Shown in pieces: positions 2,052 to 30,692 of a stretch of 34,375 nt of DNA. The position numbers and the translations under genes were made by a program. The DNA comes from Bordetella parapertussis (GTDB taxonomy: Bacteria; Pseudomonadota; Gammaproteobacteria; Burkholderiales; SG8-41), in contig CAMDDY010000005.1 of NCBI GenBank assembly GCA_945893125.1, positions 1 through 34,375 of the forward strand, in the 5' to 3' direction. The first letter of the stretch is position 1, and each line of letters opens with the position of its first letter. The notes beneath the pieces were generated by a model. That model was not told the origin of the DNA. It did no database searches and saw nothing but the letters and a program-made list of their open reading frames with translations.

Positions 2052-2981
2052 CTAGCTGCGTGTGAAGCGGATTACACGCCGCGCCAGTGCCGTGCTTTTG
2101 CTGCGATGGCTCATCAGCGTATCCGTCACCAGCACGCGCTTACCGAGTTTTGCTATGGCAGCGGCGAGTGTCGCATCCTGCTCATCAATCACCCAACGAT
2201 CCACCGCGTTGCCGTAGTGCCGCGCGATGGCGAGCGCGGTGGGTTGCAGGCCCAGCTCGCGCATCATCTTGGCGGCAGGGCCTTTGACCGCCGCGCCGCC
2301 GATGATCGGCGACACCGCCACCAGCGGAAAGGTGCGCGATGCCAGCCAGCGTTTGATCGCGGGCACACTGAAAATGGGCGCGATGCTCACGAACGGATTC
2401 GACGGACAAATCACCACCGCATCCACGCGTCCGCGCATCACGCGTGCCAGCGCATCGGGCACGCGCGCTGCTCGTGCTCCCGCAAAACGAAAACCGGTTA
2501 CGCGCGGCGTGCAGCGCCGGCGCACGAAGTAATCCTGAAATGCCAGTTCGCCGGTAGATGTTTTGACGACGGTGCGCACCGGCGTTTCGCTCATCGGCAA
2601 CAACGCGTGTTTGACGCCGAAGCGTGCGGCCAGTTCACGAGTAACGCGCGACAGCAACACGCCACGGCGCAATGCCTCGCGGCGCAACACATGCAGCGCC
2701 AGATCGCGGTCGCCCAATTGAAACCAGTCTTCGCCGCCGAGGTGTTTTATTTCGCGCATGAAATGCCAGGTCTCACCCGCGCGACCCCAGCCCAGCTGGG
2801 GATTATTTTCGCCGGCCAGCGTGTACATCACCGTATCCAGATCGGGGCAAATTCTGAAACCCAGATGATCAAAGTCGTCGCCGGTATTCACCACGATCGC
2901 AAGTTCGCCCGGCGGCAGCACCGCTGCCAGCCCCACGGCAAGGCGCGCGCCACCCACGCCCCCCGCGAGCGCGACGATCAT
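2052..2981 (-). CDS. cofD: 2-phospho-L-lactate transferase-like (CofD/FbiA)
   Basis: ORF 309 aa; MIVALAGGVGGARLAVGLA, NTGDDFDHLGFRICPDLDTVMYTLAG, ICPSNPFVSIAPI motifs. Confidence 0.95.
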   Translation of the reverse strand: MIVALAGGVGGARLAVGLAAVLPPGELAIVVNTGDDFDHLGFRICPDLDTVMYTLAGENNPQLGWGRAGETWHFMREIKHLGGEDWFQLGDRDLALHVLRREALRRGVLLSRVTRELAARFGVKHALLPMSETPVRTVVKTSTGELAFQDYFVRRRCTPRVTGFRFAGARAARVPDALARVMRGRVDAVVICPSNPFVSIAPIFSVPAIKRWLASRTFPLVAVSPIIGGAAVKGPAAKMMRELGLQPTALAIARHYGNAVDRWVIDEQDATLAAAIAKLGKRVLVTDTLMSHRSKSTALARRVIRFTRS

Positions 2982-3757
2982 CGGAACAAGTCCTCCGCCT
3001 CGGGACGCAGCAGTTCCCGCACCGAACTCTCGCGCCGCGCATAGTGAAAACCGCGCACCAGCACGGCGGGCGTGCCGTCGTCGGCCTGCCCCATCACCAG
3101 TGAAGCCGCCGCCGCCAGTTCATCGGCCGCCGCCACCTGCGTCACTTTCAGCACGCGCCCCTCGCGGTCTTTACCGCCGCGCAAATCAACCAGCGCCGGC
3201 AAGCCTGCAACCCCGATTGCCGTGCCGGTAACGCCGTGACGCCACGCGCGGCCGAAGCTGTCGATGATGAGCACGCCCACATCAGTGCCCGTGCGTTCGC
3301 TGATTTCGGCGCGCAATTGTCGTGCGGAGGCGTCGGGGTTCACCGGCAGCAACAACACCGCTTCGTCGCCGCCCGGTAGATTGGATTGATCGATGCCCGC
3401 GTTCGCCATGATAAAACCCAGCCTGTGTTCGGTAATGATGATGCCCGGCTTCACGCGCAACACTTGGTTCGATTCGCGCAGCATCAATTCGACGATGCGC
3501 GGGTCTTTGTGGGCTTCGTTGGCGATTTGTTGTGCGCGTGTGGAGGGCGTAACACTGGCGAGAGTCACGGCCCGGCCTTCGGCTTTGGAGACTATTTTCT
3601 GTGCAAGGACGAAGATGTCGCCGGGTTGTAGGGATAGGCTCGCGCGTTGGGTAGCAGCCATCAACAAGTCACCCAGTGGTGCGTCGCGTTCGACCTCTGG
3701 AATGCCAGGCAGGGCAGTTAGGGTTAACGACCGAGTCAAAAAAAATCTCCGCTCCAC
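2978..3757 (-). CDS. cofE: Coenzyme F420-0:L-glutamate ligase (CofE), no FbiB-type C-terminal domain
   Basis: GDIFVLAQKIVSKAEGR, GIDQSNLPGGDEAVLLP, DSFGRAWRHGVTGTAIGVAG motifs. ORF runs to 3907 but the upstream part translates a repeat; likely GTG start at 3757. ATGA overlap with cofD. Confidence 0.9.
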   Translation of the reverse strand: MERRFFLTRSLTLTALPGIPEVERDAPLGDLLMAATQRASLSLQPGDIFVLAQKIVSKAEGRAVTLASVTPSTRAQQIANEAHKDPRIVELMLRESNQVLRVKPGIIITEHRLGFIMANAGIDQSNLPGGDEAVLLLPVNPDASARQLRAEISERTGTDVGVLIIDSFGRAWRHGVTGTAIGVAGLPALVDLRGGKDREGRVLKVTQVAAADELAAAASLVMGQADDGTPAVLVRGFHYARRESSVRELLRPEAEDLFR

Positions 3758-3774
3758 GGCATATCCAACCCGCC

Positions 3775-4000
3775 AACCCCCTGAGAGCCGCCGAGCAGCG
3801 CAGCCACGCCGGGGGAAGTCGGCGAGGACTGTCTGAGTCCTCGCGTGTTTTTTGCGAGGGCGAGTTCCGCAGCCGCCCGGCGTGGCGAGCAGCTCAGGGG
3901 AGGCCACAGGCCCGGCGAACCGGGGGCGGCGTTTTCTTTGGTTACTTTCTTTTGGCCGTACAAAAGAAAGTGACCAGCCGCCGGGCTGCCCCCGGCGAAG
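3775..4000. repeat. Composite intergenic inverted repeat (proteobacterial REP/BIME-like)
   Basis: Hairpin ggttactttcttttg (3940-3954)/caaaagaaagtgacc (3961-3975); longer GC-rich arms cccctgag...cacgccggg / cccggcgtggcgagcagctcagggg. Confidence 0.7.
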
Positions 4001-4006
4001 TTGACG

Positions 4007-4672
4007 TCAGTCACGCACCACACCAGTAATCCCGGTAATACGAAGGCCCGACCCCGCAACCTTGTAACGCTTGTTGATTGCGATCAACACCGAGGTCAGT
4101 GCTTCGGACGCGATGGAATTCGCCAGCACGCCCGCGTGCCATGCGCGCAGGCCTGCGTCGTGCGCAAGCCCTATCACCACCTCGCGCGCATCCGCATCAT
4201 CGCCGCACACCAGCACATCGCAATCAACCTCATGCGCGGGGTCTTTCAAGTGCGTGGCGGAAACATTCTGAAACGCCGACACCACCTTCACCGCCGCGCC
4301 GAGTGTGCGCTGCAACGCCAACACCGCCGATTCACCGTTGGGCAATTGCACGCGATCCACCTTCGGCGGCATCAGCGGCACGGTGACATCCACGAGGATT
4401 TTGCCGTTCAGTTGCGCCGCCACGCTTTGCGCCGTGGCCAGTTGCGCCGCGTAGGGCACGGTGAGCACCACCACGTCGGCCTGCGCGGCTTCGGGGTTGG
4501 AAGCGCCCCGCACCACCGCTTTGCCGCCGAGCAACTGATTCAGCTCGACAGCGCCCGCCGCAGCCTTCGTGGCGTCACGCGAGCCGATCACGACTTCGTG
4601 CCCCGCCAGCGCCCAGCGGTACGCCAGCCCGCTGCCTTCTTTTCCCGTGCCACCCAGTACTGCGATTCTCAT
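4007..4672 (-). CDS. npdG: NADPH-dependent F420 reductase (F420:NADP oxidoreductase)
   Basis: ORF 221 aa; MRIAVLGGTGKEGSGLAYRWALAGHEVVIGSRD Rossmann motif, VSAFQNVSATHL, CDVLVCGDD; overlaps fbiC by ATGA. Confidence 0.93.
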   Translation of the reverse strand: MRIAVLGGTGKEGSGLAYRWALAGHEVVIGSRDATKAAAGAVELNQLLGGKAVVRGASNPEAAQADVVVLTVPYAAQLATAQSVAAQLNGKILVDVTVPLMPPKVDRVQLPNGESAVLALQRTLGAAVKVVSAFQNVSATHLKDPAHEVDCDVLVCGDDADAREVVIGLAHDAGLRAWHAGVLANSIASEALTSVLIAINKRYKVAGSGLRITGITGVVRD

Positions 4673-6900
4673 GCTGCTGCCTTTTGAAATATCGGTGCCG
4701 CCAAAGGTGCGGCCAAACAGGCGGCGTTATACCGCTCCGCCGCCGCCTCGCCATACAGCGTAGTGCGCTGCTGCGGCACGCGCCCCGCCGCGCGGATCAT
4801 CGCCTCCATGCGCGCGGGCTCCATTTCCTGCCCATGCTGCGTGCCCGCCGCGCGCGAAATGCTTTCGTTCATCAGCGTGCCGCCGAGATCATTGACCCCC
4901 GCCGCCAAGCACCCCGCGACACCATCCTCGCCCAGTTTCACCCACGATACCTGGATGTTTTTTATCACCGGATGCAGCACCAGCCGCGCCACCGCATGCA
5001 TCAAAATCGCTTCGCGCGAGGTGGGTCCCTTGCGGGCGTGGCCCTGCTGATACACCGGCGCGCCCATATGCACAAACGGCAGCGGAATAAATTCCGTGAA
5101 GCCGCCGGTTTTCTCCTGCAGCGCACGGATGCGCAGCAAGTGCCGCGCCCAGTGACGCGGCTGTTCCACGTGGCCGAACATAATCGTCGCGGTAGAACGC
5201 AAGCCCAACTCGTGCGCGGTTTGCATCACGGTCAGCCATTCATCGGTATTCACTTTATCCGGGCAGATCACTTGCCGAACTTCATCATCCAGAATTTCGG
5301 CGGCGGTTCCGGGCAGGCTGTTCAAACCCGCATCGATCAGCCGCGACAAAAACTCGCGCACCGGCAAGCCGAGGGTTTGCGCGCCGTGGGTGACTTCCAG
5401 CGGTGTAAACGCATGCACGTGGATGCCGGGCGCGGCGCGCTTCACGGCGCGCAGAATATTGAGATAGGTGTCGCCGGTGTAGCCCGGATGTATGCCGCCC
5501 TGCATGCATACTTCGGTAGCACCCCGCGACCACGCTTCACTCACGCGCCGCTCGATTTCATCGAGCGATAAATCATACGGCTCGCCGCGCAGCGACTTGC
5601 TATGCGTGCCTTTCGAAAACGCACAAAAGGTGCATCGATACGCGCAGATATTGGTGTAGTTGATGTTGCGGTTCACCACGTAGCGCACGGTGTCGCCTAC
5701 TGTTTGGCGGCGTAAGTCGTCTGCGGCAGCGCAGATGTCCTGCAATTCTTCCCCGCGTGCGGCGAAGAGACGCTCGATACCCACCTCGGATGACGCATCG
5801 TAACCTATTGTTTTTATTGGGTATTTTTTAGATCTGTGGAACTCCTTTAACGGCAACACCAGGCCCGGCGACCAACTATCCGCACGCGCAAAACCCTCCG
5901 AATCACTCGCGCGAATCACTGCAGTAGCGATTGTTTTTTCGTGCCACATCGCGGCGTCTTGCACATACGCCGGATAACTCGGCAGCCGCGCCACCAGTTC
6001 CTTGCCGCGCGACGCGGTGACTTCTCGCAGCGCTTCGACATCGGGCCACGGCGCTTCGGGGTTCACATGATCGGGCGTCACCGGCGACACACCACCCCAA
6101 TCGTTGATGCCTGCATCGATCAACTCACCGCAATTTCCGGCGCTCAAGTTCGGCGGCGCTTGAATGTTCATTTCCGCGCCGAGGATCTGCCGCGCGGCGA
6201 CGATGGTCCACAGCAGTTCTTCATGCGGCGCGTGCGGCGCATCCGCCATGCGCGTATCGGGCTTGGCGCGAAAGTTCTGGATAATCACTTCTTGTATGTG
6301 GCCGTACTGCCGATGCAAATCACGAATCGCATTCAGTGCATCGATGCGCTCGTCGCGTGTCTCGCCGATGCCGATAAGGATGCCGGTGGTAAACGGTATT
6401 TTAAGTTCACCCGCCAGCCGCAACACTTCCAGCCGCACCGCCGGATGCTTATCCGGCGAACCAAAATGCGGCCCGCCTTTTTCGCACAGGCGTTCGGATG
6501 TGCTTTCCAGCATCAGCCCCTGCGACGCGCTGACTTCACGCAGGCGCACCATTTCGTCCCGCGTCATCACGCCGGGGTTCACATGCGGCAGCAGCGATGT
6601 TTCTTTCAAAACCCGCGCGCACATCGCGTGCAGGTAGTCGATGGTGGTGGCGTAGCCGAGTGCCGCAAGTTCTTCGCGCGCCGCTTTGTAACGCAACTCC
6701 GGTTTGTCGCCGAGGGTAAACAGCGCTTCGGTGCAGCCGGCCACTTGGCCAGCCTTCGCGATGGCCAGCACTTCATCTGCCGTCAGATAAGCGCGCTTAC
6801 CCGGCTGCGGCGCGTGGGCGAAAGTGCAATAGCTGCACACGTCGCGGCACAGTAGCGTGAGCGGGATGAAAACTTTGCGGGAGTAGGAGATGCAATTCAC
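4669..6900 (-). CDS. fbiC: Bifunctional FO synthase, fused CofG-CofH radical SAM (FbiC type)
   Basis: ORF 743 aa; two radical-SAM clusters: CRDVCSYC (CofG half) and CAYRCTFC (CofH half). Confidence 0.95.
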   Translation of the reverse strand: MNCISYSRKVFIPLTLLCRDVCSYCTFAHAPQPGKRAYLTADEVLAIAKAGQVAGCTEALFTLGDKPELRYKAAREELAALGYATTIDYLHAMCARVLKETSLLPHVNPGVMTRDEMVRLREVSASQGLMLESTSERLCEKGGPHFGSPDKHPAVRLEVLRLAGELKIPFTTGILIGIGETRDERIDALNAIRDLHRQYGHIQEVIIQNFRAKPDTRMADAPHAPHEELLWTIVAARQILGAEMNIQAPPNLSAGNCGELIDAGINDWGGVSPVTPDHVNPEAPWPDVEALREVTASRGKELVARLPSYPAYVQDAAMWHEKTIATAVIRASDSEGFARADSWSPGLVLPLKEFHRSKKYPIKTIGYDASSEVGIERLFAARGEELQDICAAADDLRRQTVGDTVRYVVNRNINYTNICAYRCTFCAFSKGTHSKSLRGEPYDLSLDEIERRVSEAWSRGATEVCMQGGIHPGYTGDTYLNILRAVKRAAPGIHVHAFTPLEVTHGAQTLGLPVREFLSRLIDAGLNSLPGTAAEILDDEVRQVICPDKVNTDEWLTVMQTAHELGLRSTATIMFGHVEQPRHWARHLLRIRALQEKTGGFTEFIPLPFVHMGAPVYQQGHARKGPTSREAILMHAVARLVLHPVIKNIQVSWVKLGEDGVAGCLAAGVNDLGGTLMNESISRAAGTQHGQEMEPARMEAMIRAAGRVPQQRTTLYGEAAAERYNAACLAAPLAAPIFQKAAA

Positions 6901-6938: not shown

Positions 6939-7898
6939 TCAATTCAACTTCACACCCGTAACCTTCACCACCTCCGCCCAGGTCTTCACATCCTGCTCTA
7001 TCGAGCGCTGCATCACTTCCGGCGTCTGCTTCATCGCCTCGGCGGCATTAACGAGAAAAATTTCTTTTGCCTTGGGTGCATCCACCGCCTTGGCGAACTC
7101 GGCGTTGAGCCGCTCGATGATCGCGCGCGGCACGTTCGCCGGCGCCAGCACGCCGGCGATCACGGCGGCATCCACGCCTTTCACCGTTTCGCCGAGCGCG
7201 GGAATATCCGGCAATGCCGTCGCACGTTTGTCGGCGGTGAGGCCGATGGCGACGAGCTTTTTGCTTTTCACGTGTTCCAGCACGGCGGGTATGGTGTTGA
7301 CGATCAGCGACAACTCGCCGGTCATCAACGACACGGTGGAGGTGGTGCCGCCCTTATAGTTGATCGAGGTGAGATCGATGCCCGCGCGGGTGCGGAATTT
7401 TTCGGCGGCCAGATGCGTCACCGTGCCCGCGCCGGAATTACCGCAGGTGATGCCGGGATTTTTCTTCGCCAGCGCGATCAGCTCTTTGGCGTTTTTCACG
7501 CCCAGCGACGGGTGCGCCGCCATGATCATGGGCGACACCGACACCGGCGCCACGGCGATGAGATCGCGCGCATGGTTGAACGCCAGTTTAGTGTAGAGCG
7601 ACGGCATGATGGCGTGCGTCGACAGGTCTGTGAGCAGCAGCGTGTAGCCATCAGCGGCTGACTTGGCCACGAACTCCGCCGCGATGGTGGTGCCGGCGCC
7701 GGGGCGGTTTTCAACGATCACTTGCTGGCCGAGGCTACGGCTGATTTCGGCAGCGGTGATGCGCGCAAACGTATCGGTGGCGCCGCCGGGGGCGAAGGCC
7801 ACGATCAAGCGGATGGGCTTGGTGGGGTAGGTTTGGGCCAGCGCACCGCCACTCAGCATTACACCGAGCATAATGCACAAATATTTGTTTTTAAACAT
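6939..7898 (-). CDS. Bug family solute-binding protein within the F420 cluster
   Basis: ORF 319 aa; signal peptide; YPTKPIRLIVAFAPGGATDTFARI, NRPGAGTTIAAEFVAKSAADGYTLL. Confidence 0.92.
   Translation of the reverse strand: MFKNKYLCIMLGVMLSGGALAQTYPTKPIRLIVAFAPGGATDTFARITAAEISRSLGQQVIVENRPGAGTTIAAEFVAKSAADGYTLLLTDLSTHAIMPSLYTKLAFNHARDLIAVAPVSVSPMIMAAHPSLGVKNAKELIALAKKNPGITCGNSGAGTVTHLAAEKFRTRAGIDLTSINYKGGTTSTVSLMTGELSLIVNTIPAVLEHVKSKKLVAIGLTADKRATALPDIPALGETVKGVDAAVIAGVLAPANVPRAIIERLNAEFAKAVDAPKAKEIFLVNAAEAMKQTPEVMQRSIEQDVKTWAEVVKVTGVKLN
7877..7898 (-). repeat. AT-rich boundary motif copy M2 (ATGTTTAAAAACAAATATTTGT)
   Basis: Overlaps start codon of the Bug gene and encodes MFKNKYLC. Confidence 0.55.
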
Positions 7899-7908
7899 AT
7901 TACTCGTC

Positions 7909-8862
7909 CTATGTTTTGCGCATCGCCGGCAACACCTGCACGATGAACTGCTCCAACTGCGCCACCTGGTCTTCGCCTACCAAGCGGATGCACAGGTCGG
8001 AAACCCCCGCCGCCTCGTAACGTTTCAGCACATCGACAACCGCCGAGGCTGGCCCCAAGCCCATCATGCCACGAAAATTCACGCCGCCGCCGTAGTACTT
8101 TTCGAGAAACGCATTAGTCAGCGATTCGGCCCTGGCGACATCGTTTTCCATGCGTATCGTGGTGTAGACACACGTCGGGAAATCCGCACGCGGTCTACCA
8201 TGTTTCGCCATAGCCTCAGCACACACCACGCGCAACTGACGGATATCGTCTTCAGTGACGTAAGTGGTAATCACGCCATCGCCAAACTTACCGACACGCT
8301 CAATCTGCGCGGGAATAATCTCGCCGCGATTGCCCGCAGTGACCAACAGCGGCGGACCCGCCTCGTTCCACGGCAACGGGCCGATGGTGTGTTCGGTGAG
8401 CTTGAAACCGTTGCCTTCGTACGACACCGGCTTGCCGCTCCACAGCATGCGCCACACTTTCATGTGTTCTTCGAGATCGCGCGCGCGGCGCTTGTGGTTT
8501 TGCCCGCACGCCTCCCACTCGCGCGCAATCGCGGGCAAGCCCCAGCCCACGCCGAGTCCCAGCACCAGCCGCCCTTGTGAGATCTGATCGATATTGGCAA
8601 GTTGATGCGCGAGCACCGTCGCCTGGCGCAACGCGGGCAGCAAAATCGCGGTGCCGAGGCGCGCGCGTTTCGTCATCGCCGCCACATAGGCGAGTGTCGT
8701 CAACGGCTCCAGACGCGGTTTCGCCACCACGCTGTCGCCGACCCACACATCCATATCCGCGTCATCGCACAGGCGCGCGATAGTCCAGCAGTCTTCCACC
8801 GGCGGACGCCGTGCCGACTGAATAATCACGCCCCGGTGGGGCAACAATACGCCGAGTCGCAT
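7909..8862 (-). CDS. LLM class (luciferase-like) probable F420-dependent oxidoreductase
   Basis: ORF 317 aa; MRLGVLLPHRG, TKRARLGTAILLPALRQATVLAHQLANIDQISQGRLVLGLGVGW typical of LLM oxidoreductases; first gene of the F420 cluster. Confidence 0.9.
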   Translation of the reverse strand: MRLGVLLPHRGVIIQSARRPPVEDCWTIARLCDDADMDVWVGDSVVAKPRLEPLTTLAYVAAMTKRARLGTAILLPALRQATVLAHQLANIDQISQGRLVLGLGVGWGLPAIAREWEACGQNHKRRARDLEEHMKVWRMLWSGKPVSYEGNGFKLTEHTIGPLPWNEAGPPLLVTAGNRGEIIPAQIERVGKFGDGVITTYVTEDDIRQLRVVCAEAMAKHGRPRADFPTCVYTTIRMENDVARAESLTNAFLEKYYGGGVNFRGMMGLGPASAVVDVLKRYEAAGVSDLCIRLVGEDQVAQLEQFIVQVLPAMRKT

Positions 8863-10870: not shown

Positions 10871-11839
10871 CTAATCCACTTGTATATTGGCGCTCTTCGC
10901 GACCTTGGCCCACTTGGCGATTTCCACGCTGACGAAGGCAGCCATGTCTTTCGAATTCGCCGGCCCCAGCGTTGCGCCTTGCGCAGCCCACAGCGGTTTT
11001 AATTCCGCGGAGGCCAGCGCCTTGGCGGTCTCGCTAACCATGCGGTCATTGATAGGCGGCGGCGAACCGGCAACCCCCCACAGCGCATACCACGTCGAGA
11101 CTTCATAACCTTTCAACCCGGCTTCGGCGGTGGTCGGCACATACGGAAACGCAGTCGTGCGCGTTTTCGCGGCCACGGCCAGCGGCATGATGAGTCCGGA
11201 ACGAATGTGCGCCGCCGATGATCCTAATCCGTCGAACATCACATCGACCTGTTGTCCGCTCAGTAAATCCTGCAACGCAGGCCCCGCGCCTTTGTGGGGA
11301 ACATGCGCGATATCAACGCCGGCGGCGATTTTGAATAACTCGCCCGCCAAGTGATGCGAAGTGCCGCTGCCCGCCGATGCATAATTCAATTTGCCAGCGC
11401 TCTTTTTGGCAAGTGCAATAAACGCTGCCAGATCGGTCTCCTTGACGCGCTTGGGGCTGACCACGATCACCTGCGGCACCACCGCCACCACCGCGAGCGG
11501 CGTGAAATCTTTTTCCAGACTGTAGTCGAGCTTTTTATACACGCTCGGTGCAATGGCATGATGCACCGCGCCCATGAAATAGGTGTAGCCGTCTTTCGAC
11601 GCACGCGCCGCGATGCCCGCGCCGAGGTTGCCGCCCGCGCCGCCGCGGTTATCGTTGACGATCTGCCTGCCGAGTTGCTTGGACAATATCGCCGACAACG
11701 GACGCGCAAACGCATCGGTGCCGCCGCCTGCGGGGAAAGGCACCACCAGGGTGATCGCTTTGGCGGGCCACTCTTGCGCGGGTGCGTGCATCGCGATGGC
11801 ACTTAAAACCGCAAGCACGAGGGTTGATTGGAATTTCAT
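10871..11839 (-). CDS. Bug family solute-binding protein
   Basis: ATG at 11839 (MKFQSTLVLAVLSAIAMHAPAQEWPAKAITLVVPFPAGGGTDAFARP); ORF overextends to 11935. Confidence 0.9.
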   Translation of the reverse strand: MKFQSTLVLAVLSAIAMHAPAQEWPAKAITLVVPFPAGGGTDAFARPLSAILSKQLGRQIVNDNRGGAGGNLGAGIAARASKDGYTYFMGAVHHAIAPSVYKKLDYSLEKDFTPLAVVAVVPQVIVVSPKRVKETDLAAFIALAKKSAGKLNYASAGSGTSHHLAGELFKIAAGVDIAHVPHKGAGPALQDLLSGQQVDVMFDGLGSSAAHIRSGLIMPLAVAAKTRTTAFPYVPTTAEAGLKGYEVSTWYALWGVAGSPPPINDRMVSETAKALASAELKPLWAAQGATLGPANSKDMAAFVSVEIAKWAKVAKSANIQVD

Positions 11840-11923
11840 GACATCTCCTCCGGGCGTGAACTCATCATAGGGCGCGGGCCAAGCCGCGTGATGCGGGCGC
11901 AAGTATACTACATAGAAAAATAA

Positions 11924-11944
11924 CAATAAAAACAAATAGTTGCA
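11924..11944 (+). repeat. AT-rich boundary motif copy M3 (CAATAAAAACAAATAGTTGCA)
   Basis: Intergenic, between the Bug start and the enoyl-CoA hydratase 3' end. Confidence 0.5.
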
Positions 11945-15089: not shown

Positions 15090-16064
15090 ATGTCCCTAAA
15101 ATACCCGCTGCTGGCCGCGACGTGCGCCAGCTGTGCCGTACTCGCTACCTTGAATGCACAAGCGCAGGATTTCCCCACCAAGGCCATCAACATCACCGTG
15201 CCCAACCCGCCCGGCGGCATGAATCAGGTTCACGCGCAGCCGCTCTCGACGATACTGGAAAAAATCACCAATCAGCCCGCGCCGGTGGTCAATCGCCCCG
15301 GCGCCGTGGCGGCGGCCGGCACGGCTTACGTGGTGAATCAACCGCCCGACGGCCATAGCTGGCTGGTGAGCACGGCCAACCTGCATCTTGCGCTGGAAAA
15401 AGACAAACTCTACGGCGTGAAATCGCCTTACGCGCTGAATCAGATTGGTTTTGTGGCGTTGTTAAGTTCCGATCCGATTATTCTGGGCGTGCATCCGTCG
15501 CTGCCCGTCAAAACCGTCAAGGAGTTGATCGCGCTGGCGAAGTCGCGCCCCAACGAACTGGTGTATTCCACCTCCGGCGCGTTCGGCATCACGCACACGC
15601 CGCAGATATTATTTCTCAACGCCACCAAAACCACCATGCGCCATCTGCCGACCACCGGCGGCGGGCCAGCGATTACACAGGCGCTGGGCGGTCACTCGCA
15701 AATGACCGCCGGCGCCCCCGCGACCATGGCGCCGCACGGCGCCTCGGGCAAGCTGCGGCTGCTGGCAAGCTGGGGCGACAAAGTGCATCCGGCGCTGCCC
15801 GCTGTGCCGACGTTCAAATCGCAGGGCCTCGATATCGAGGCCTATCTGTGGGTGGGCCTTTTTACCTCGGCGGCAGTGCCCGAAGCCACCATGACCAAAG
15901 TGCGTGATCTCGCGCGCCGCGCCACTTCCGACCCGCAATTCAAAAAGGCGCTGGAGAATCTGCAAGTGGTGCCCGATTACCGCGACGGCCCGGAATTTCG
16001 AAAGTTTTTTGATGCCGACCATCAGCGCATGGCGGTAGCGGTCAAAAGCATCGGCAAGATTTAG
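15090..16064 (+). CDS. Bug family solute-binding protein
   Basis: ORF 324 aa; signal peptide; FPTKAINITVPNPPGGMNQVHAQPLSTILEK; RBS-like ggagg upstream. Confidence 0.88.
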   Translation: MSLKYPLLAATCASCAVLATLNAQAQDFPTKAINITVPNPPGGMNQVHAQPLSTILEKITNQPAPVVNRPGAVAAAGTAYVVNQPPDGHSWLVSTANLHLALEKDKLYGVKSPYALNQIGFVALLSSDPIILGVHPSLPVKTVKELIALAKSRPNELVYSTSGAFGITHTPQILFLNATKTTMRHLPTTGGGPAITQALGGHSQMTAGAPATMAPHGASGKLRLLASWGDKVHPALPAVPTFKSQGLDIEAYLWVGLFTSAAVPEATMTKVRDLARRATSDPQFKKALENLQVVPDYRDGPEFRKFFDADHQRMAVAVKSIGKI

Positions 16065-19796: not shown

Positions 19797-21260
19797 TTAT
19801 CGCCAGGTCTCCCGCCACTTTTGATACTGCGATAGCCGCACGCGATAGCGCGCGATATTGCCTTCGTGCAGGCTCATCAATTCGGTTTCCACCACCTCGG
19901 CAAAGCGCGCCTGGTCGTCTTTGGGCACACCTTGTGTGGCGCGCTGCTTGATGGTTGCGATCGCGGCTTTTTGGTCCATGGCGCCGACGACGATTTCGCC
20001 GACGGCTTGCGCGATCAAGGCGCGGTAACGCATCCGAAATGGATCAGGCTCTCCCAGAGAGCGGGCAACCGCCGAGTAGCGCGCGCACGAGCGCTCATAG
20101 GCCCACACAAATACATCGCGCAGCAATTCAACGCGATTCAATTCGTACACCCCCAGTATGCCGTCGATGTAGGCGCGCCCGGGCACGTCCACAAAGGACA
20201 ACGGACACAGGTTGCCGCGAATGAACGGCAAGTTGGCCGCAAGGCGCGACACACGCTTGTTGACATCCTCGAATGGTTGCAGGTAAGGCAGTTGCACCAT
20301 CGCAAAAAATGCTTGCTCGAATGGATCGGTGATTGCCGCGGCAGTGTCAAGAATCTGCTGAAAGCATTCGTCGATCAACTGCGGCACTTCGAGCGGATGA
20401 AACACCGTGCCATCAATACCCACGGCAATCTCGCGCACGCGCCCGCTCGCCTTGGGGTCGAGCAAGTTGTCCGACAACAGCGCATGCAGGTTAAGAAGGG
20501 TGTAGCGATCAAAATTAACGTCGTTCGCCTGTTCGACCAGCAATTCAATTGCGGCCTTGTGATTCAGTATCATCTGCGCTTCGCGCGCGTCTTTGCCATC
20601 GGCGCTTTCGCCCAGATCGAGCAGCCGTTCGGTTTCGAGCAACGAATAGGTGTTGCCCTCCAGCCGGCTTGAGTTCCACGACAGGTCGATCAACAAGCGA
20701 TTGTAAATTTGCCGCGCATACGTGCCTGCCGGACGCTGCGCGTTGGGGGAACGCCCCAATTCGTATAACCGCTGCCGTGTTGGCGCGGTCAGATAGTAAG
20801 TTTCATTGGGCCGGTAGACATCGAGAAATGCGCGGTTATAGCCTGCCGGTTGACGCTGGTGGATGGGTTGGCGGATGGCCTGCTTGATGACTTCGGCTTC
20901 GGTGGAAATGGGAATGTATTTTTCGCCGTGCGCGGTTACGTCACCTGCGCCGGACACCTGCGCCACGCCTGTGGCGTAAATCGGCGCATAACTTTCACTG
21001 CGCGCCTCAACCTTGGGCGCCTGCGGAGCAATCGCCGCTACGTCTGCGTAGGTGGTTGCCCTATAGCGGCTGCCGCGACCGCGGCCCTCCACCACCAATT
21101 GCCGTTGAGCAACCAGTTGCGCTAAGCGGCGCTGTAGTGTGCGGCGCGACAGCTTGGTGGCAAGTGAGTCGCCAATAGTCTCGACGGAGCTACCTCCGGA
21201 AAGCCGGGTAACCGCCTGCACTACTACGTCGAGCTCGTGTTGTGAGACTTGTTTTGGCAC
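19797..21260 (-). CDS. Fic-fold protein with N-terminal HTH-like region; degenerate Fic motif
   Basis: ORF 487 aa (GTG start); SRRTLQRRLAQLVAQRQL HTH-like; SSRLEGN inhibitory-type motif; LQPFEDVNKRVSR at the HPFx(D/E)GNGR position. Confidence 0.85.
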   Translation of the reverse strand: MPKQVSQHELDVVVQAVTRLSGGSSVETIGDSLATKLSRRTLQRRLAQLVAQRQLVVEGRGRGSRYRATTYADVAAIAPQAPKVEARSESYAPIYATGVAQVSGAGDVTAHGEKYIPISTEAEVIKQAIRQPIHQRQPAGYNRAFLDVYRPNETYYLTAPTRQRLYELGRSPNAQRPAGTYARQIYNRLLIDLSWNSSRLEGNTYSLLETERLLDLGESADGKDAREAQMILNHKAAIELLVEQANDVNFDRYTLLNLHALLSDNLLDPKASGRVREIAVGIDGTVFHPLEVPQLIDECFQQILDTAAAITDPFEQAFFAMVQLPYLQPFEDVNKRVSRLAANLPFIRGNLCPLSFVDVPGRAYIDGILGVYELNRVELLRDVFVWAYERSCARYSAVARSLGEPDPFRMRYRALIAQAVGEIVVGAMDQKAAIATIKQRATQGVPKDDQARFAEVVETELMSLHEGNIARYRVRLSQYQKWRETWR

Positions 21261-21269
21261 GTATTAATA

Positions 21270-21294
21270 TGGCGCGATATAAAATATTGAGCCA
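21270..21294. promoter_or_regulatory. 25-bp palindromic candidate operator, site 1
   Basis: TGGCGCgatataaaatattGAGCCA, 6-13-6 architecture. Confidence 0.6.
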
Positions 21295-21322
21295 TGTTAA
21301 TCTATTTTTATGGCGCAATCAA
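21294..21322 (-). promoter_or_regulatory. Candidate sigma70 promoter of the Fic gene
   Basis: On minus strand TTGATT (21322-21317), 17-bp spacer, TAACAT (21299-21294). Confidence 0.5.
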
Positions 21323-21335
21323 TAATTATGCGCCA
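21311..21335. promoter_or_regulatory. 25-bp palindromic candidate operator, site 2
   Basis: TGGCGCaatcaataattatGCGCCA, perfect 6-bp arms; overlaps the predicted -35. Confidence 0.65.
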
Positions 21336-21373
21336 AATAAAATGACTAAAACCAATTTACGCGCCACAATAAC

Positions 21374-24265
21374 TCATACCAGCGCATCCGCCAACACCCG
21401 CGCCACATGCACCGCTTCGCGTTGCGCGCCATCGTGTATCTGATGCCGGCAACTGGTGCCGTCGGCGATGATGAGCGTGTCTTTGCCGGCTTCGCGCACT
21501 TTGGGCAGTAGCGCGGCCTCGGCCATTTGCATCGATACGTCGTAATGTTCGGCGTCGTAGCCAAAACTGCCGGCCATGCCGCAGCAACTGGATTCGATCA
21601 ATTCCGTTTGTAACTCCGGAATCAGTTTCAGCACGCGCAGCACGGCGGGCATCACGGCGAAGGCTTTCTGATGGCAATGGCCGTGCAGCAGCGCTTTTTT
21701 CTGCGGCAATGCTTTGAGGTTGAGTTTGAAGCGGCCCGCGTCGAGTTCGCGCGCGATGAATTCCTCGAACAGAAAAGCATTCAAATCCAGTTCCGCTGCC
21801 TGCGGCGTCGGCCACAACGACAGGAACTCGTCGCGCATGCCCAGCACGCAGGAAGGCTCCAGCCCGACAACCGGGATGCCGCGTTCGATGTAGGGCATCA
21901 ATGTGTTGATCGTGCGCTCGGCCTCAAAGCGGGCTTTGTCCACCATGCCGGTGGCGAGATAGGTGCGGCCACAGCACAGCGGGCGTTTTGTATCCCTGGC
22001 TTGCGGGATGTGTACGGTGTAGCCCGCCGCTTGCAAAACGTTAAGCGCGGCGTGGGCGTTTTCGGGTTCGAAGTAGTTGGTGAAGGTGTCGATGAAGAGG
22101 ACGACTTCGCGGCTTGTAGCGCCCGCTGCTTTGAGGGCAGCGGGTTGGGGTGCGGGTGAAACTTGCCCGCCCAAAAAATTGGTCTTCCACTTCGGCAACG
22201 AACGCTGCGAAGCAAACCCCGCAAACCCCTTACCCAAAGCCTGCGCCCAATTCGCCAGCGGTCCCATTTTCGCAACCCAAGGCGCATACAGCGGCAAGTT
22301 CGCAATCAGCTTGTCCTTGAGGGTAAACCCATGCCGCTGCTTGTAATGATGCAGGAACTCCACCTTCATCTTCGCCATGTCCACGCCGGTCGGGCATTCG
22401 CGTTTGCAGCCCTTGCACGACACGCAGAGATCCATTGCCTTGTGCATTTCGTCGGAGGTAAACGCATCCGGGCCTAGCTGGCCCGATAGCGCCAAGCGCA
22501 AGGTATTCGCCCGTCCGCGCGTCAGATGTTGCTCATCACGCGTGACGCGAAACGAGGGGCACATGGTGCCGGCGTCGAACTTGCGGCAGTGGCCGTTGTT
22601 GTTGCACATCTCCACCGCTTTATCGAGGCCGCCCCACTCCTTCCAATCCAGAACAGTCTTGATCGGTATGGTCTTGTAGCCCGGCTTGAAACGAAACAGC
22701 GAACGATCATCCTGCTTCGACGGGCGCACGATTTTGCCGGGGTTGAGCAAGCCCTTCGGATCAAAAATAGCCTTGATCTCGCCGAACGCCTGCGTGAGCT
22801 TCGGCCCGAAGAACGGCGCGATCCATTCGCTGCGCACCAGCCCATCGCCGTGTTCACCGGAATACGAGCCTTTGTATTGCTTCACCATCTCCGCGGCTTC
22901 TTCGGCGATGGCGCGCATTTTGCCCGCGCCGTCCTCGCGCATATTGAGGATGGGCCGCACGTGCAACGTGCCCACCGAGGCATGCGCGTACCAGGTGCCG
23001 GTGGTGCCGTGTTTCTCGAACACCTTGGTCAAACGGTCGGTGTATTCGGCCAGGTGTTCCAGCGGCACCGCGCAATCTTCGATGAACGACACGGGTTTAC
23101 CGTCGCCCTTCATCGACATCATGATGTTCAGCCCCGCCTTGCGTACCTCCCATACGTCGCGCTGGAACGCGGCATCGGTGATTTCGATCACGCTGTCGGG
23201 GTGACCGAGATCGCCCATCAGTTCTACCAGTTGCTTCAATTTCGCAGTCTGCTCGTCTTTGTCATCACCGGCGAATTCCACCAGCAGAATCGCGTCAGGA
23301 TCGCCTTGAATAAATTTTTCCACGATGGGCCTAAACGCGGCGTTGCTGCGCGCGAGACCGATCATGGTGCGATCCACCAGTTCCACCGCAGTGGGTTTTA
23401 ACTTCACGATCTGCTGCGGCGCTTCCATCGACTTGTAGAACGTGGGGAAGTGGCACACGCCCAGCGTCTTGTGTTTGGGCAGCGTCGATAGATTCAGATG
23501 CACGCGCTTGGAGTAAGCGAGCGTGCCTTCGCTGCCCACCAGCAAGTGCGCCATGTTGAACGCCATGCCCGACACCATGTCGAGGTTGTAGCCGCCCACG
23601 CGGCGCAGCAGCTTGGGGTAGCGCAGCTCGATCTCTTCGGCGTTCAACACCGCGATGTCGCGTATCTTGCGCACCAGATCGCGGTAACCCTGCGGGCCAT
23701 CAAGCTGCGCCAAATCCGACGGCACGGCGCCAAAGTGATACGCGCCGCCGTCAGCCAGCACGGCATCGACCCCGCGCACGTTATGCACCATGTTGCCGTA
23801 GAAAATCGAGCGTGAACCGCAGGAGTTGTTGCCCGTCATGCCGCCGATGGTCGCTTGCGCGCTGGTGGACACATCCACCGGATACCACAGGCCGTGCGGC
23901 TTCAAGAACGCATTGAGTTGATCCAGCACCACGCCCGGCTGCACAACACACGTGCGCGCCTCGGCATTGAAATCCATCACGTTGCGCAGGTATTTGCTGA
24001 CATCAATCACCAGCGCCTCGCCCACGGTCTGTCCGCACTGCGAGGTGCCGCCGCCGCGCGGCAATACCGCAACGCCGGCATCCAGCGCGATTTGCATCGC
24101 GACGGTGGCGTCTTCTTCCGTTTGCGGAATCACCACGCCGATGGGCTCGATCTGATAAATCGACGCGTCGGTCGAGTAACGCCCGCGCGTGGCGGCGTCG
24201 AAGAGGACTTCGCCGTGGATTTCTTTGGCTAGGCGGGCGGCGAGAGTGGTGTTGGTTGTGGTCAC
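21374..24265 (-). CDS. FAD-binding oxidase / (Fe-S)-binding protein (GlcD/D-lactate dehydrogenase-like with C-terminal CCG domains)
   Basis: ORF 963 aa; VLPRGGGTSQCGQTVGEALVIDVSKYL, ATIGGMTGNNSCGSRS, CVSCKGCKRECPTG, PLCCGRTY and SSCCGMAGSFGY motifs. Confidence 0.93.
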   Translation of the reverse strand: MTTTNTTLAARLAKEIHGEVLFDAATRGRYSTDASIYQIEPIGVVIPQTEEDATVAMQIALDAGVAVLPRGGGTSQCGQTVGEALVIDVSKYLRNVMDFNAEARTCVVQPGVVLDQLNAFLKPHGLWYPVDVSTSAQATIGGMTGNNSCGSRSIFYGNMVHNVRGVDAVLADGGAYHFGAVPSDLAQLDGPQGYRDLVRKIRDIAVLNAEEIELRYPKLLRRVGGYNLDMVSGMAFNMAHLLVGSEGTLAYSKRVHLNLSTLPKHKTLGVCHFPTFYKSMEAPQQIVKLKPTAVELVDRTMIGLARSNAAFRPIVEKFIQGDPDAILLVEFAGDDKDEQTAKLKQLVELMGDLGHPDSVIEITDAAFQRDVWEVRKAGLNIMMSMKGDGKPVSFIEDCAVPLEHLAEYTDRLTKVFEKHGTTGTWYAHASVGTLHVRPILNMREDGAGKMRAIAEEAAEMVKQYKGSYSGEHGDGLVRSEWIAPFFGPKLTQAFGEIKAIFDPKGLLNPGKIVRPSKQDDRSLFRFKPGYKTIPIKTVLDWKEWGGLDKAVEMCNNNGHCRKFDAGTMCPSFRVTRDEQHLTRGRANTLRLALSGQLGPDAFTSDEMHKAMDLCVSCKGCKRECPTGVDMAKMKVEFLHHYKQRHGFTLKDKLIANLPLYAPWVAKMGPLANWAQALGKGFAGFASQRSLPKWKTNFLGGQVSPAPQPAALKAAGATSREVVLFIDTFTNYFEPENAHAALNVLQAAGYTVHIPQARDTKRPLCCGRTYLATGMVDKARFEAERTINTLMPYIERGIPVVGLEPSCVLGMRDEFLSLWPTPQAAELDLNAFLFEEFIARELDAGRFKLNLKALPQKKALLHGHCHQKAFAVMPAVLRVLKLIPELQTELIESSCCGMAGSFGYDAEHYDVSMQMAEAALLPKVREAGKDTLIIADGTSCRHQIHDGAQREAVHVARVLADALV

Positions 24266-26248: not shown

Positions 26249-27220
26249 TTACTGTGGTTGTATCCCCGCCTCGCGCGCTGCCGCCGCCCACGAAGCCAAC
26301 TGGTCTTTGACGAACGCGGGCACTTCCTGGCGCGGCATATTGCCCACCTCGAAACCGATCCTGCCGAACTGATCCTGCGTTTCCGGGCGCTTTAATACCG
26401 CCATAACTTCGCGGTCGAGTCGCTCGACCACCGCAGCGGGGGTTTTCGACGGCGCGAACAAGGCGAACCAGCCGTAAATCGAAAAATTCGGGAAACCCTG
26501 TTCCACCATCGTCGGCACATCGGGCGCGGGCCGCGTGCGCGTGCGGGTGATCGCCGCGATGGCGCGTAGCCGCCCCTCTTTCACGTGCGGCAACACCAGA
26601 TTGGTGCCGCCGATCACGATGTTGGCGCGCCCAGCAATCAAATCCGGCACCGCCGCCGCATCGCCTTTGTACGGCACGCTCAGCATATCCACTTTCGCGG
26701 TGGCTTTGACCTGCGCCAGGGCAAACACGGTTGACGGATTAGCGGCGGCGACCACCAGCTTGCCGGGATTGGCGCGCGCGTAGCTGATCAGTTCCGCAAG
26801 ATTTTTTGCCGGCGTGCCGGCGTTCACCACCAGCAACTGGCTATTCCATCCCACAAACGTGATCGGCGTGAAATCGGCCACCGGATCAAACGGCAGACTC
26901 TTGCGCATCGCCGGCGCGCCCGCCATGTTGCCGGAACCGCCCAGCAGCAAAGTGTGTCCATCGGGCGTGGCTTTCGCCGCCAGCTCCGCGCCGATCACGC
27001 CATCGGCGCCGGGCCGGTTATCGATCAGCACTGTTTGCCCCAGCGATTGCGACAGCGACTGCGCCATGATCCGGCCAGCCGCGTCGGTGGGTCCGCCGGC
27101 GGGAAAGCCGATCACGAAGCGCACAGGGCGCGTGGGAAAGGCCGCGGCGGATTGCGCTTGTGCCGCAGTGTGTGTCACCAGTAACGCCAGTGCTGCAATA
27201 ACACCCATTTTGTTGTTCAT
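26249..27220 (-). CDS. Bug family solute-binding protein
   Basis: ORF 323 aa; FPTRPVRFVIGFPAGGPTDAAGRIMAQSLSQSLGQTVLIDNRPGADGVIGAELAAKATPDGHTLL. Confidence 0.92.
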   Translation of the reverse strand: MNNKMGVIAALALLVTHTAAQAQSAAAFPTRPVRFVIGFPAGGPTDAAGRIMAQSLSQSLGQTVLIDNRPGADGVIGAELAAKATPDGHTLLLGGSGNMAGAPAMRKSLPFDPVADFTPITFVGWNSQLLVVNAGTPAKNLAELISYARANPGKLVVAAANPSTVFALAQVKATAKVDMLSVPYKGDAAAVPDLIAGRANIVIGGTNLVLPHVKEGRLRAIAAITRTRTRPAPDVPTMVEQGFPNFSIYGWFALFAPSKTPAAVVERLDREVMAVLKRPETQDQFGRIGFEVGNMPRQEVPAFVKDQLASWAAAAREAGIQPQ

Positions 27221-28153: not shown

Positions 28154-28300
28154 TGACGCAGATTTACACAGATTTACGCAGATTATTTCTTGGCTACACC
28201 ACGACATCTGCACGAAAGCGCGTGATGAAATGAGCAACGATCAAACCAAACCAGAAATCACACGGGGTTAATCTGTGAAAATCTGCGCAAATCTGTGTCA
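28154..28300. repeat. Palindrome copy R3
   Basis: Arms tgacgcagatttacacagatttacgcagatta (28154-) / taatctgtgaaaatctgcgcaaatctgtgtca (-28300). Confidence 0.8.
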
Positions 28301-29252
28301 AAGATCTTTGTTTTTCGCCGTTTGCCTCTTAACAGCCCAAGCCCAAGCGCAAACCTGGCCCGCCAAACCCATCCGCTTCATCATCGCGCAACCGCCCGGC
28401 GGACAAAACGATGTGCAGGCGCGCATCATTGGATTGAAGCTCACCGAGTTGTGGGGCCAGCCGGTGGTGTTTGACAACCGCCCCGGCGCGGGCGGCGCGA
28501 TTGGTTTTGAAATCGCGGCGCAGGCGCCCAACGATGGCTACACGCTGGCGATGGGTTCGATCAGCACGCTGGCGGTGATCCCGGCGATGCCACGCAAGCC
28601 GCGTTACGATCCCCTCACGGATTTTGCGCCGGTGTCGATGGTGTCCACCTCGCCGTATGTGGTGACGCTGCATCCTTCGGTACCCGCGCGCACGCTGAAA
28701 GAACTGGTGGCGCTCGCCAAGGCCAAACCCGGTTCGTTGTCGTATGCCTCCAGCGGCACCGCCACCGGCATACATCTGACCACCGAGTTATTCAAGATGA
28801 TCGCCGGCATCGACATGGTTCACGTGCCGTACAAGGGCGGCGCGCCGGCCACCACCGATCTCATCGGCGGACAAGTCGGCGTGATGTTCAACAACGTGAT
28901 CACGGCGGTGCCGCATGTCAAAAGCGGCAAGCTGCGCGCGCTGGCCGTCACCACCGCCAAACGCTCGGCGGCGCTGCCGGACATCCCAACCACCGCCGAG
29001 GCAGGTTACGCGGGTGCGGAATCGAGTTCGTGGCAGGGCATCGTCACGCGCGCCGGCGCGGGCGCCGCTGTGGTCGCCCGCATGCACGCGGATTTGGTGA
29101 AAGTACTGGCCATACCCGAGGTGCGCAGTGCCATTGTGAATCAGGGCAACGATATCGTGGCCAGTTCGTCGCAGGAGTTCGCCGCCTACATCCGCGCGGA
29201 GATCGACAAATGGGCCAAGGTCATCAAAGTGGCAGGCGTGCGTAATGAGTGA
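28275..29252 (+). CDS. Bug family solute-binding protein (start lies in repeat R3)
   Basis: ORF 325 aa, GTG start; QTWPAKPIRFIIAQPPGGQNDVQARIIG, MVHVPYKGGAPATTDLIGGQVGVMF. Confidence 0.88.
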   Translation: MKICANLCQRSLFFAVCLLTAQAQAQTWPAKPIRFIIAQPPGGQNDVQARIIGLKLTELWGQPVVFDNRPGAGGAIGFEIAAQAPNDGYTLAMGSISTLAVIPAMPRKPRYDPLTDFAPVSMVSTSPYVVTLHPSVPARTLKELVALAKAKPGSLSYASSGTATGIHLTTELFKMIAGIDMVHVPYKGGAPATTDLIGGQVGVMFNNVITAVPHVKSGKLRALAVTTAKRSAALPDIPTTAEAGYAGAESSSWQGIVTRAGAGAAVVARMHADLVKVLAIPEVRSAIVNQGNDIVASSSQEFAAYIRAEIDKWAKVIKVAGVRNE

Positions 29253-29468: not shown

Positions 29469-29726
29469 CACCCCGGCCTGCGGTTATGCGAGACGCGCGC
29501 GTATCCCTGCCGCCGCGTGTCTGGCATCCGTAAGGTCAGGCGCGAGAGTGGAAAATCGGAAAAATATACAATGACAACTCGCACGGCCCCCCCCAATGGA
29601 CGACGATATTCCGTTCTGAAGGCCGCCTGAAATAGACAACGTAAAATTTATTTCCAAAGCTCACATTTTTGCGGGCTTTTTTTACTGTTAAAATTCGAGC
29701 CGATCAGGATGCTGCGGAGAACGACC

Positions 29727-30692
29727 ATGCACACACGCACATGCGTACTCGGTGCGGCTTGTCTGCTCATGCCGACCGCCCCCGCGTGCGCCCAAACTTA
29801 TCCCGATAAACCGGTCCGGCTGATCGTGACCGGCTCGCCGGGGAGTTCCGGCGACACTCTGGGCCGTCTTGTTGCCGAAGGACTGACGCGCACTTTCGGT
29901 CGGCAGGTCATACTCGACAACCGTCCGGGCGGCGGCGCCAATATCGGGCCGGATATCGCCGCCCGGTCGCCGCCGGACGGCTATACGCTGTTCATGGTAA
30001 CCATCAGCCATGCGGTAAACGTCACGCTATACCGCAAACTGCCGTACGACATCGTGCGCGACTTTGCCCCGGTGACACAGCTCGTGACCGACCCCGCCGC
30101 GCTGGTCGTGCATTCGACGGTGGCGGCCAAATCGGTGAGCGAACTCATCGCAATTGCGAAGGCGAGACCCGGCACGCTCAATTATGCCTCCGGCGGAACC
30201 GGCACCTTCACTTTCCTCGCCGCCGAATTATTCAAGGGACAGGCTGGCGTGGACATCGTGCACGTGCCTTACAAGGGCGGCGGGCCGGCGCTGCTCGCGG
30301 TGGTCGCCGGCGAGGTTGCGGTCTACTTTTCGCCGCTCGGAATTTCGTTGCCTCATGTCAGGCAGGCACGGCTGCGCGCATTGGCGGTCACCACATTGAA
30401 GCGCGTGCCGATGGCGCCGGAGTTGCCGACGATTGCCGAATCGGGCCTGCCCGGATTTGAAGCCGGAAACTGGTTCGGACTGCTGGCGCCAGCGGCAGCG
30501 CCGAATGCCGTCATCAACACCATTCATAACGCCGCGGCCGGTTGGCTGAACGAACCGGACGCGCGCAAGCGGCTCGACGAACTCGCGTATGTCCGCATCG
30601 GCAGCACCCCGGCAGCATTCGCCGGGCACATCAAATCCGAAATAGCCCGGCTGGGAAAAATCGTGAGAGCACTCAAGCTCACGGTCGAGTAA
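29727..30692 (+). CDS. Bug family solute-binding protein
   Basis: ATG at 29727 (MHTRTCVLGAACLLMPTAPACAQTYPDKPVRLIVTGSPGSSGDTLGRL); IVHVPYKGGGPALLAVVAGEV. Confidence 0.9.
   Translation: MHTRTCVLGAACLLMPTAPACAQTYPDKPVRLIVTGSPGSSGDTLGRLVAEGLTRTFGRQVILDNRPGGGANIGPDIAARSPPDGYTLFMVTISHAVNVTLYRKLPYDIVRDFAPVTQLVTDPAALVVHSTVAAKSVSELIAIAKARPGTLNYASGGTGTFTFLAAELFKGQAGVDIVHVPYKGGGPALLAVVAGEVAVYFSPLGISLPHVRQARLRALAVTTLKRVPMAPELPTIAESGLPGFEAGNWFGLLAPAAAPNAVINTIHNAAAGWLNEPDARKRLDELAYVRIGSTPAAFAGHIKSEIARLGKIVRALKLTVE

Follow-up and report, generated by a model that had tools for sequence, protein, structure and literature searches.

Arrayed inverted repeats upstream of an HTH-Fic gene as probable operators of its own product

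Background

Two palindromes in the intergenic gap upstream of a fic gene are, in our reading, operators for that gene's own product, which would thereby regulate itself and is most likely a repressor; judging from sequence comparison, we put the probability of this reading at about 0.83. The window analysed here, that is, the whole stretch of 34,375 nucleotides, had been given an initial annotation in which the fic gene encodes a self-repressing HTH-Fic regulator. That proposal is supported by conservation of the sites upstream of relatives and by co-variation of the operator word with the DNA-reading helix, from which we infer binding and negative autoregulation. Activation and repression are indistinguishable by sequence.

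Fic-HTH fusions are common, and in phd-doc and other toxin-antitoxin operons a Fido-domain gene is autoregulated through palindromic operators. The Fic-HTH protein CccR of Yersinia pseudotuberculosis represses itself via an inverted repeat at its own promoter (PMC9755527) and, within the literature searched, is the sole Fic-HTH protein with a mapped operator. CbFic2 also binds DNA and was tested with random DNA (PMC10628234). Literature searches on Fic regulators that lack the His, and on control of type I restriction by a Fic gene, turned up nothing relevant besides these two proteins.

Methods

Relatives of the window protein were obtained by scanning 84,980 species genomes, which gave 80 loci, full-length or nearly so and 53-70% identical, and by two more searches, in about 600 additional genomes, which added relatives down to approximately 36% identity. 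The alignment contains 109 relatives, 35-73% identical and most above 45%, with start codons and gene ends derived anew by script. Control windows for the enrichment of half-sites were taken from the same loci.

The palindromes and the candidate promoter

The palindromes lie in a gap of 113 bp, flanked by an FAD-linked oxidase gene (21374-24265, minus strand) and the fic gene (19797-21260, minus strand). Site 2 (21311-21335; TGGCGCAATCAATAATTATGCGCCA) is a perfect TGGCGC-N13-GCGCCA dyad, and site 1 (21270-21294; TGGCGCGATATAAAATATTGAGCCA) has the same 6-13-6 geometry with one mismatch (GAGCCA); a lone half-site, GCGCCA, follows at 21361-21366, all three being recorded without strand. The half-site starts within a dyad are 19 bp apart, and the starts of the two sites are separated by 41 bp. 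The letters and coordinates that had been reported for the paired palindromes, their 41-bp offset and the extra GCGCCA proved exact.

A scan of the window with up to 2 mismatches allowed returned 16 pattern matches against 10.6 +/- 3.5 expected, which is not significant, and the 5.02-Mb genome contains perfect matches in 8 places. TGGCGC being a frequent word in this DNA, the palindromes are unremarkable by the window alone. A pattern with A/T arms is found at 23 places in the genome, and the sole clustered pair among them is that of site 1 and site 2; what is distinctive is that a single intergenic gap holds two dyads with A/T-rich arms, offset by 41 bp. As to further genomic targets, there was no second cluster among the 23 A/T-arm matches genome-wide, and the next-best match (C313:968) lies within coding sequence, in a 417-aa ORF that looks to us like a NuoD-type NADH dehydrogenase subunit.

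The initial annotation had also placed a "good" promoter over the sites. Its positions, its 17-bp spacer and its overlaps with the sites are correct: the candidate -35, TTGATT (21317-21322, minus strand), lies inside site 2, and the candidate -10, TAACAT (21294-21299, minus strand), shares one base with site 1; site 1 overlies the predicted transcript start and 5' leader. The word "good" does not stand, each putative hexamer matching at 4/6 positions (8/12 together, a weak match), and a promoter scan at a threshold of 9/12 found none. The GTG start codon has no clear ribosome-binding sequence ahead of it. When promoter position was compared across the family, no single conserved placement emerged except in 15 loci (L008, L011, L020, L022-L024, L027-L029, L033, L034, L037, L039, L063 and L071), where TATAAT stands exactly 7 nt 5' of ATG, right behind the last half-site. 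Transcripts from these loci are probably leaderless, as far as this arrangement indicates; the place of the promoter in the window is uncertain.

The encoded protein

The fic gene (19797..21260, minus strand) encodes 487 aa from a GTG start that aligns with the MPK start of its orthologues. Membership of the Fic/Fido superfamily is given by Pfam PF02661 at residues 250-344 (E=6.9e-10; 40.1 bits against a cut-off of 24), and the PADLOC profiles PDC-S04 (E=1.2e-14) and SoFic (E=1.9e-11) match the Fic domain only. An AlphaFold2 model (pLDDT 87.9, pTM 0.71) has a winged HTH at residues 7-68, then a linker modelled with low confidence (78-110), and after it the Fic domain, with a helical part at its C-terminus; the nearest solved folds identified by Foldseek include FICD, FIC-1 and SoFic. 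In the winged HTH (21057..21242, minus strand), predicted helices span residues 7-19, 26-32 and 39-51, and predicted wing strands 55-58 and 65-68. The last of the helices, RRTLQRRLAQLVA (21108..21146, minus strand), is the predicted recognition helix, and its residues 39, 41, 44 and 45 vary with the operator word.

The inhibitory-helix motif SSRLEGN (residues 197-203; 20652..20672, minus strand) is near-invariant in the 109 relatives and contains, in the same chain, the (S/T)xxxE(G/N) pattern of class II Fic proteins as S197-x3-E201-G202. The active-site motif YLQPFEDVNKRVSR (20244..20285, minus strand) departs from the HxFx(D/E)GN(G/K)RxxR of active AMP-transferases in that Gln328 occupies the position of the catalytic His. 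This position is Gln in 108/109 relatives and Leu in the remaining one, a pattern of conserved loss rather than the decay of a single gene. In Fic chemistry the catalytic His is the general base, and its replacement by Gln therefore makes canonical AMPylation unlikely; going by the motif, the Fic domain here is probably non-AMPylating in the usual way. In active Fic proteins NKR and a later Arg hold phosphate and meet the inhibitory Glu. The phosphate-binding residues of NKRxxR, including R339, are retained here, so the domain may still bind a nucleotide or another ligand.

Half-site arrays upstream of relatives

Upstream of most relatives there is an array of half-sites that extends to the start codon. 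An operator word could be assigned to 100/109 relatives (GCGCCA in 65, GCGACA in 28 and GCGCAA in 7), leaving nine unclassed. Per locus, the 75 bp directly before the gene contain 2.29 class-specific half-sites and the preceding 75 bp 1.23, compared with 0.03-0.14 per bin farther upstream and 0.18 in the 150 bp 3' of the gene. At least 3 half-sites are present in the upstream 150 bp of 54/65 GCGCCA loci, 20/28 GCGACA loci and 4/7 GCGCAA loci, against 1/1,409, 0/713 and 0/119 control windows, respectively, the class labels having come from the same upstream regions as these counts. In a label-free count, 42/80 upstream regions and 58/2,058 control windows had 4 or more copies of the top repeated hexamer. 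Conservation upstream of orthologues was the test that had been set for the palindromes, and it is strongly passed.

For all three words the mode of the inward spacing is 13 bp, with 11-15 tolerated, and at least one perfect dyad is present in 69/100 classified loci. Where perfect dyads are consecutive, 10/16 of the distances between them fall at 39-44 bp. The 6-13-6 geometry and the 41-bp offset are therefore traits of the family. Many relatives also have an additional half-site upstream, often as GCGCCA-N7-TGGCGC.

Operator word and recognition helix

The operator word follows the recognition helix. Tyr44 (QYR) goes with GCGCAA; helices of the RRTLQRR(L) type, which includes that of the window, go with GCGCCA; and P39/M41 (PPRM), or W45 with L42 (NRRTLQRW), goes with GCGACA. 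Helix residues agree with the GCGCCA/GCGACA split in 89/91 cases, an agreement established post hoc. On a tree built from the Fic part only, the operator word must have changed 14 times or more; for the GCGCAA group three changes are required, every one of them accompanied by Tyr44. All supported independent contrasts are concordant (4/4 and 2/2), numbers too few for a significant sign test.

A rule written down in advance and then applied to 19 previously unused genes from plasmids and viral contigs was right for 15/19, including 9/9 of those with Tyr44; the held-out genes are partly non-independent, most of the Tyr44 genes being related alphaproteobacterial copies. The held-out failures, L144 and L146-L148 (near-copies; two distinct genes), are NRRTLQRRL with GCGACA, on three near-identical contigs, and SRRSLQRWL, which goes with a mixed array. 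The rule also fails for L093 and L103, which carry D and T, respectively, at residue 38, and on this post-hoc comparison that residue probably matters too. The HTH and the operator adjoin in the DNA, so joint inheritance without contact could explain the co-variation.

Pairs of relatives with similar Fic domains can differ in both the HTH and the operator: L014 and L027 are 86% identical in the Fic part and 44% in the HTH, L036 and L031 80% and 39%, and L008 and L007 87% and 53%, and in each pair the operator words differ. The closest HTH relatives mostly have the same word (L027, L036, L063 and L008), with L014 as an exception. On these identities, either the 5' end and the operators would have been exchanged as a unit or the HTH would evolve much faster.

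Paralogues in the same genome have different words in 5/5 pairs, among them L069 and L082 of one Chlamydiae MAG. In each of the other four genomes (G249, G295, G140 and G486), one of the three words accompanies a near relative, and a more distant relative has an inverted repeat of its own, such as TGGCCGTAT/ATACGGCCA or ATCTCCTCA/TGAGGAGAT. Such differences are the outcome that selection against crosstalk would be expected to produce.

Inverted-repeat arrays also lie at the start codons of four more distant genes (L162, L163, L164 and L165), approximately 41-44% identical to the window protein and most with a QPF motif; these arrays are the genes' own and differ from those of the close family. 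The self-operator principle thus appears to reach past the close family.

Genomic context and distribution

No neighbour family is common to more than 5/80 loci, and comparison of the 80 loci revealed no adjacent partner gene of the toxin-antitoxin kind. In about five loci (L010, L023, L027, L028 and L034) hsdR-like type I restriction genes adjoin the fic gene, and in L010 and L027 the hsdR-like gene overlaps its end by about 10-22 bp; at these loci the regulator may control restriction. PADLOC and Pfam scans of the 116 nearest neighbours gave no defence theme, defence genes being rare among them.

Relatives with arrays span phyla; 30 plasmid records and a few viral contigs also carry relatives, in some cases beside integrases. 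No close relative was found in the window's own genus and family among the sampled genomes, and the fic gene has therefore probably been acquired. It is a solitary and sporadic gene. On a plasmid of Sagittula sp. P11 (L155) the fic frame is shortened to 384 aa and matches in three pieces, a probable broken copy, and the operator array is intact.

Elsewhere in the window, positions 2052-6900 hold coenzyme F420 genes (cofD, cofE and a fused cofGH), and an LLM-class oxidoreductase gene is located at 7909-8862; F420 synthesis looks unusual in a Burkholderiales-like genome. By eye, seven genes in the 34 kb resemble TctC-type periplasmic receptors (363-1337, 6939-7898, 10871-11935, 15090-16064, 26249-27220, 28275-29252 and 29709-30692), one of them without an NCBIfam match.

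Discussion

The mechanism that we infer takes in DNA binding, dimerisation, repression, cooperativity and a role for the Fic domain. The N-terminal winged HTHs of a dimer would each read one TGGCGC half-site, one per arm of the 6-13-6 dyad. Half-site starts 19 bp apart place the bound helices about 65 A from each other, which is wider than in most winged-HTH dimers, and this wide offset would fit HTH domains that are kept apart by the remainder of the dimer. The 41-bp period points to dimers lined up next to each other on one face of the DNA; with dyads about four helical turns apart, filling could be cooperative. Once the protein accumulates, the filled dyads would cover the promoter and start region and exclude RNA polymerase. 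The Fic domain, lacking its His, could serve as a ligand-sensing or dimerising module. In evolution, the HTH and the operators shift specificity jointly, the Fic part remaining conserved, and copies in one cell would therefore avoid interference.

Autorepression by occlusion is the best reading because the operators cover all candidate promoters and CccR represses likewise. The Fic protein might instead bind the same sites and activate its own promoter, through positive autoregulation or a ligand-dependent switch. The -35 hexamers in the window are poor, and some relatives have a strong TATAAT straight behind the last half-site and no good -35, as activator-dependent promoters can. We nevertheless consider activation improbable, since the operators span the -35/-10 region and the start site, and in many loci run to the start codon, as is typical of occlusion, and since the sole studied Fic-HTH precedent represses (PMC9755527).

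The dyads might also act as hairpins in a leader RNA, in attenuation or translation control, rather than as operators in DNA. The region does fold better than shuffled sequences (z = -2.29), and site 1 lies within the predicted 5' leader. We rejected this reading, which we hold to be very unlikely, because one hexamer is repeated across arms and across the loci of a class where hairpins would drift with compensating changes, because lone half-sites and outward-facing pairs are common, and because the word tracks the recognition helix; some array-bearing relatives, moreover, probably have leaderless transcripts. There is a similarly slight chance that the sites serve a different, host-encoded regulator of which the fic gene is merely a target: TGGCGC is common in a GC-rich genome, but nothing else was found in favour, and the array is found with the gene in different phyla, on plasmids and on a few viral contigs, its word changing with the gene's own HTH. 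That the palindromes arose by chance in a GC-rich genome, as the insignificant count in the window alone would allow, is refuted by their conservation in about 100 relatives.

Fic-HTH autorepression is a known kind of regulation, and the fic gene shares two features with it, a winged HTH of its own (in the predicted structure) and inverted repeats at its own promoter. CccR is likewise a dimeric class II Fic protein with an HTH that represses itself through inverted repeats at the -35/-10 region, and its helices too are widely spaced (70 A, with a 26-bp spacer); its HTH, however, is C-terminal, its catalytic His is present, it AMPylates FtsZ, and its operator is a single AGATAATCAT-N26 repeat (PMC9755527). 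Here the HTH is N-terminal, Gln replaces His, and dyads of 6-13-6 form arrays whose word varies within the family. The CccR/SoFic subfamily is defined by a Fic domain followed by a C-terminal HTH, so the window protein stands outside that subfamily, though by analogy it would work like CccR, its nearest precedent. SoFic and CbFic2 (3eqx, 8cil) share the Fic fold and a winged HTH by fold match, but have a C-terminal HTH, a catalytic His and low sequence similarity to the window protein (PMC10628234). For the Fic domain, FICD/HYPE and C. elegans FIC-1 match best in the PDB, by sequence and by fold; they are eukaryotic and catalytically competent, and have TPR where the window protein has its HTH. 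Unlike phd-doc, the system described here combines DNA binding and the Fido domain in one protein, has no partner gene and carries Gln for His. The distinct features are thus the N-terminal HTH, the Gln, the dyad arrays and the switchable specificity.

Beyond self-control, the protein may be a private sensor under its own control, a toxin-like protein whose dose is limited, or a component of defence. More tentatively, we can picture a large and mobile family of pseudo-Fic transcription factors, mutually orthogonal self-repressors in which HTH and operator switch specificity together, probably because the 5' end of the gene is exchanged along with its operators, and whose Fic domain, without its His, senses a ligand and is not an enzyme; we regard this wider picture as possible, at somewhat less than even odds. 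The approximately 100 natural protein-operator pairs, with operators that differ by one word, make the DNA code of the family readable and testable by single substitutions. They also offer a testable case of Fic domains that have departed from AMPylation and turned into parts of regulators. Across bacteria, the DNA-reading helix of the protein and its sites change together, giving each copy a private switch.
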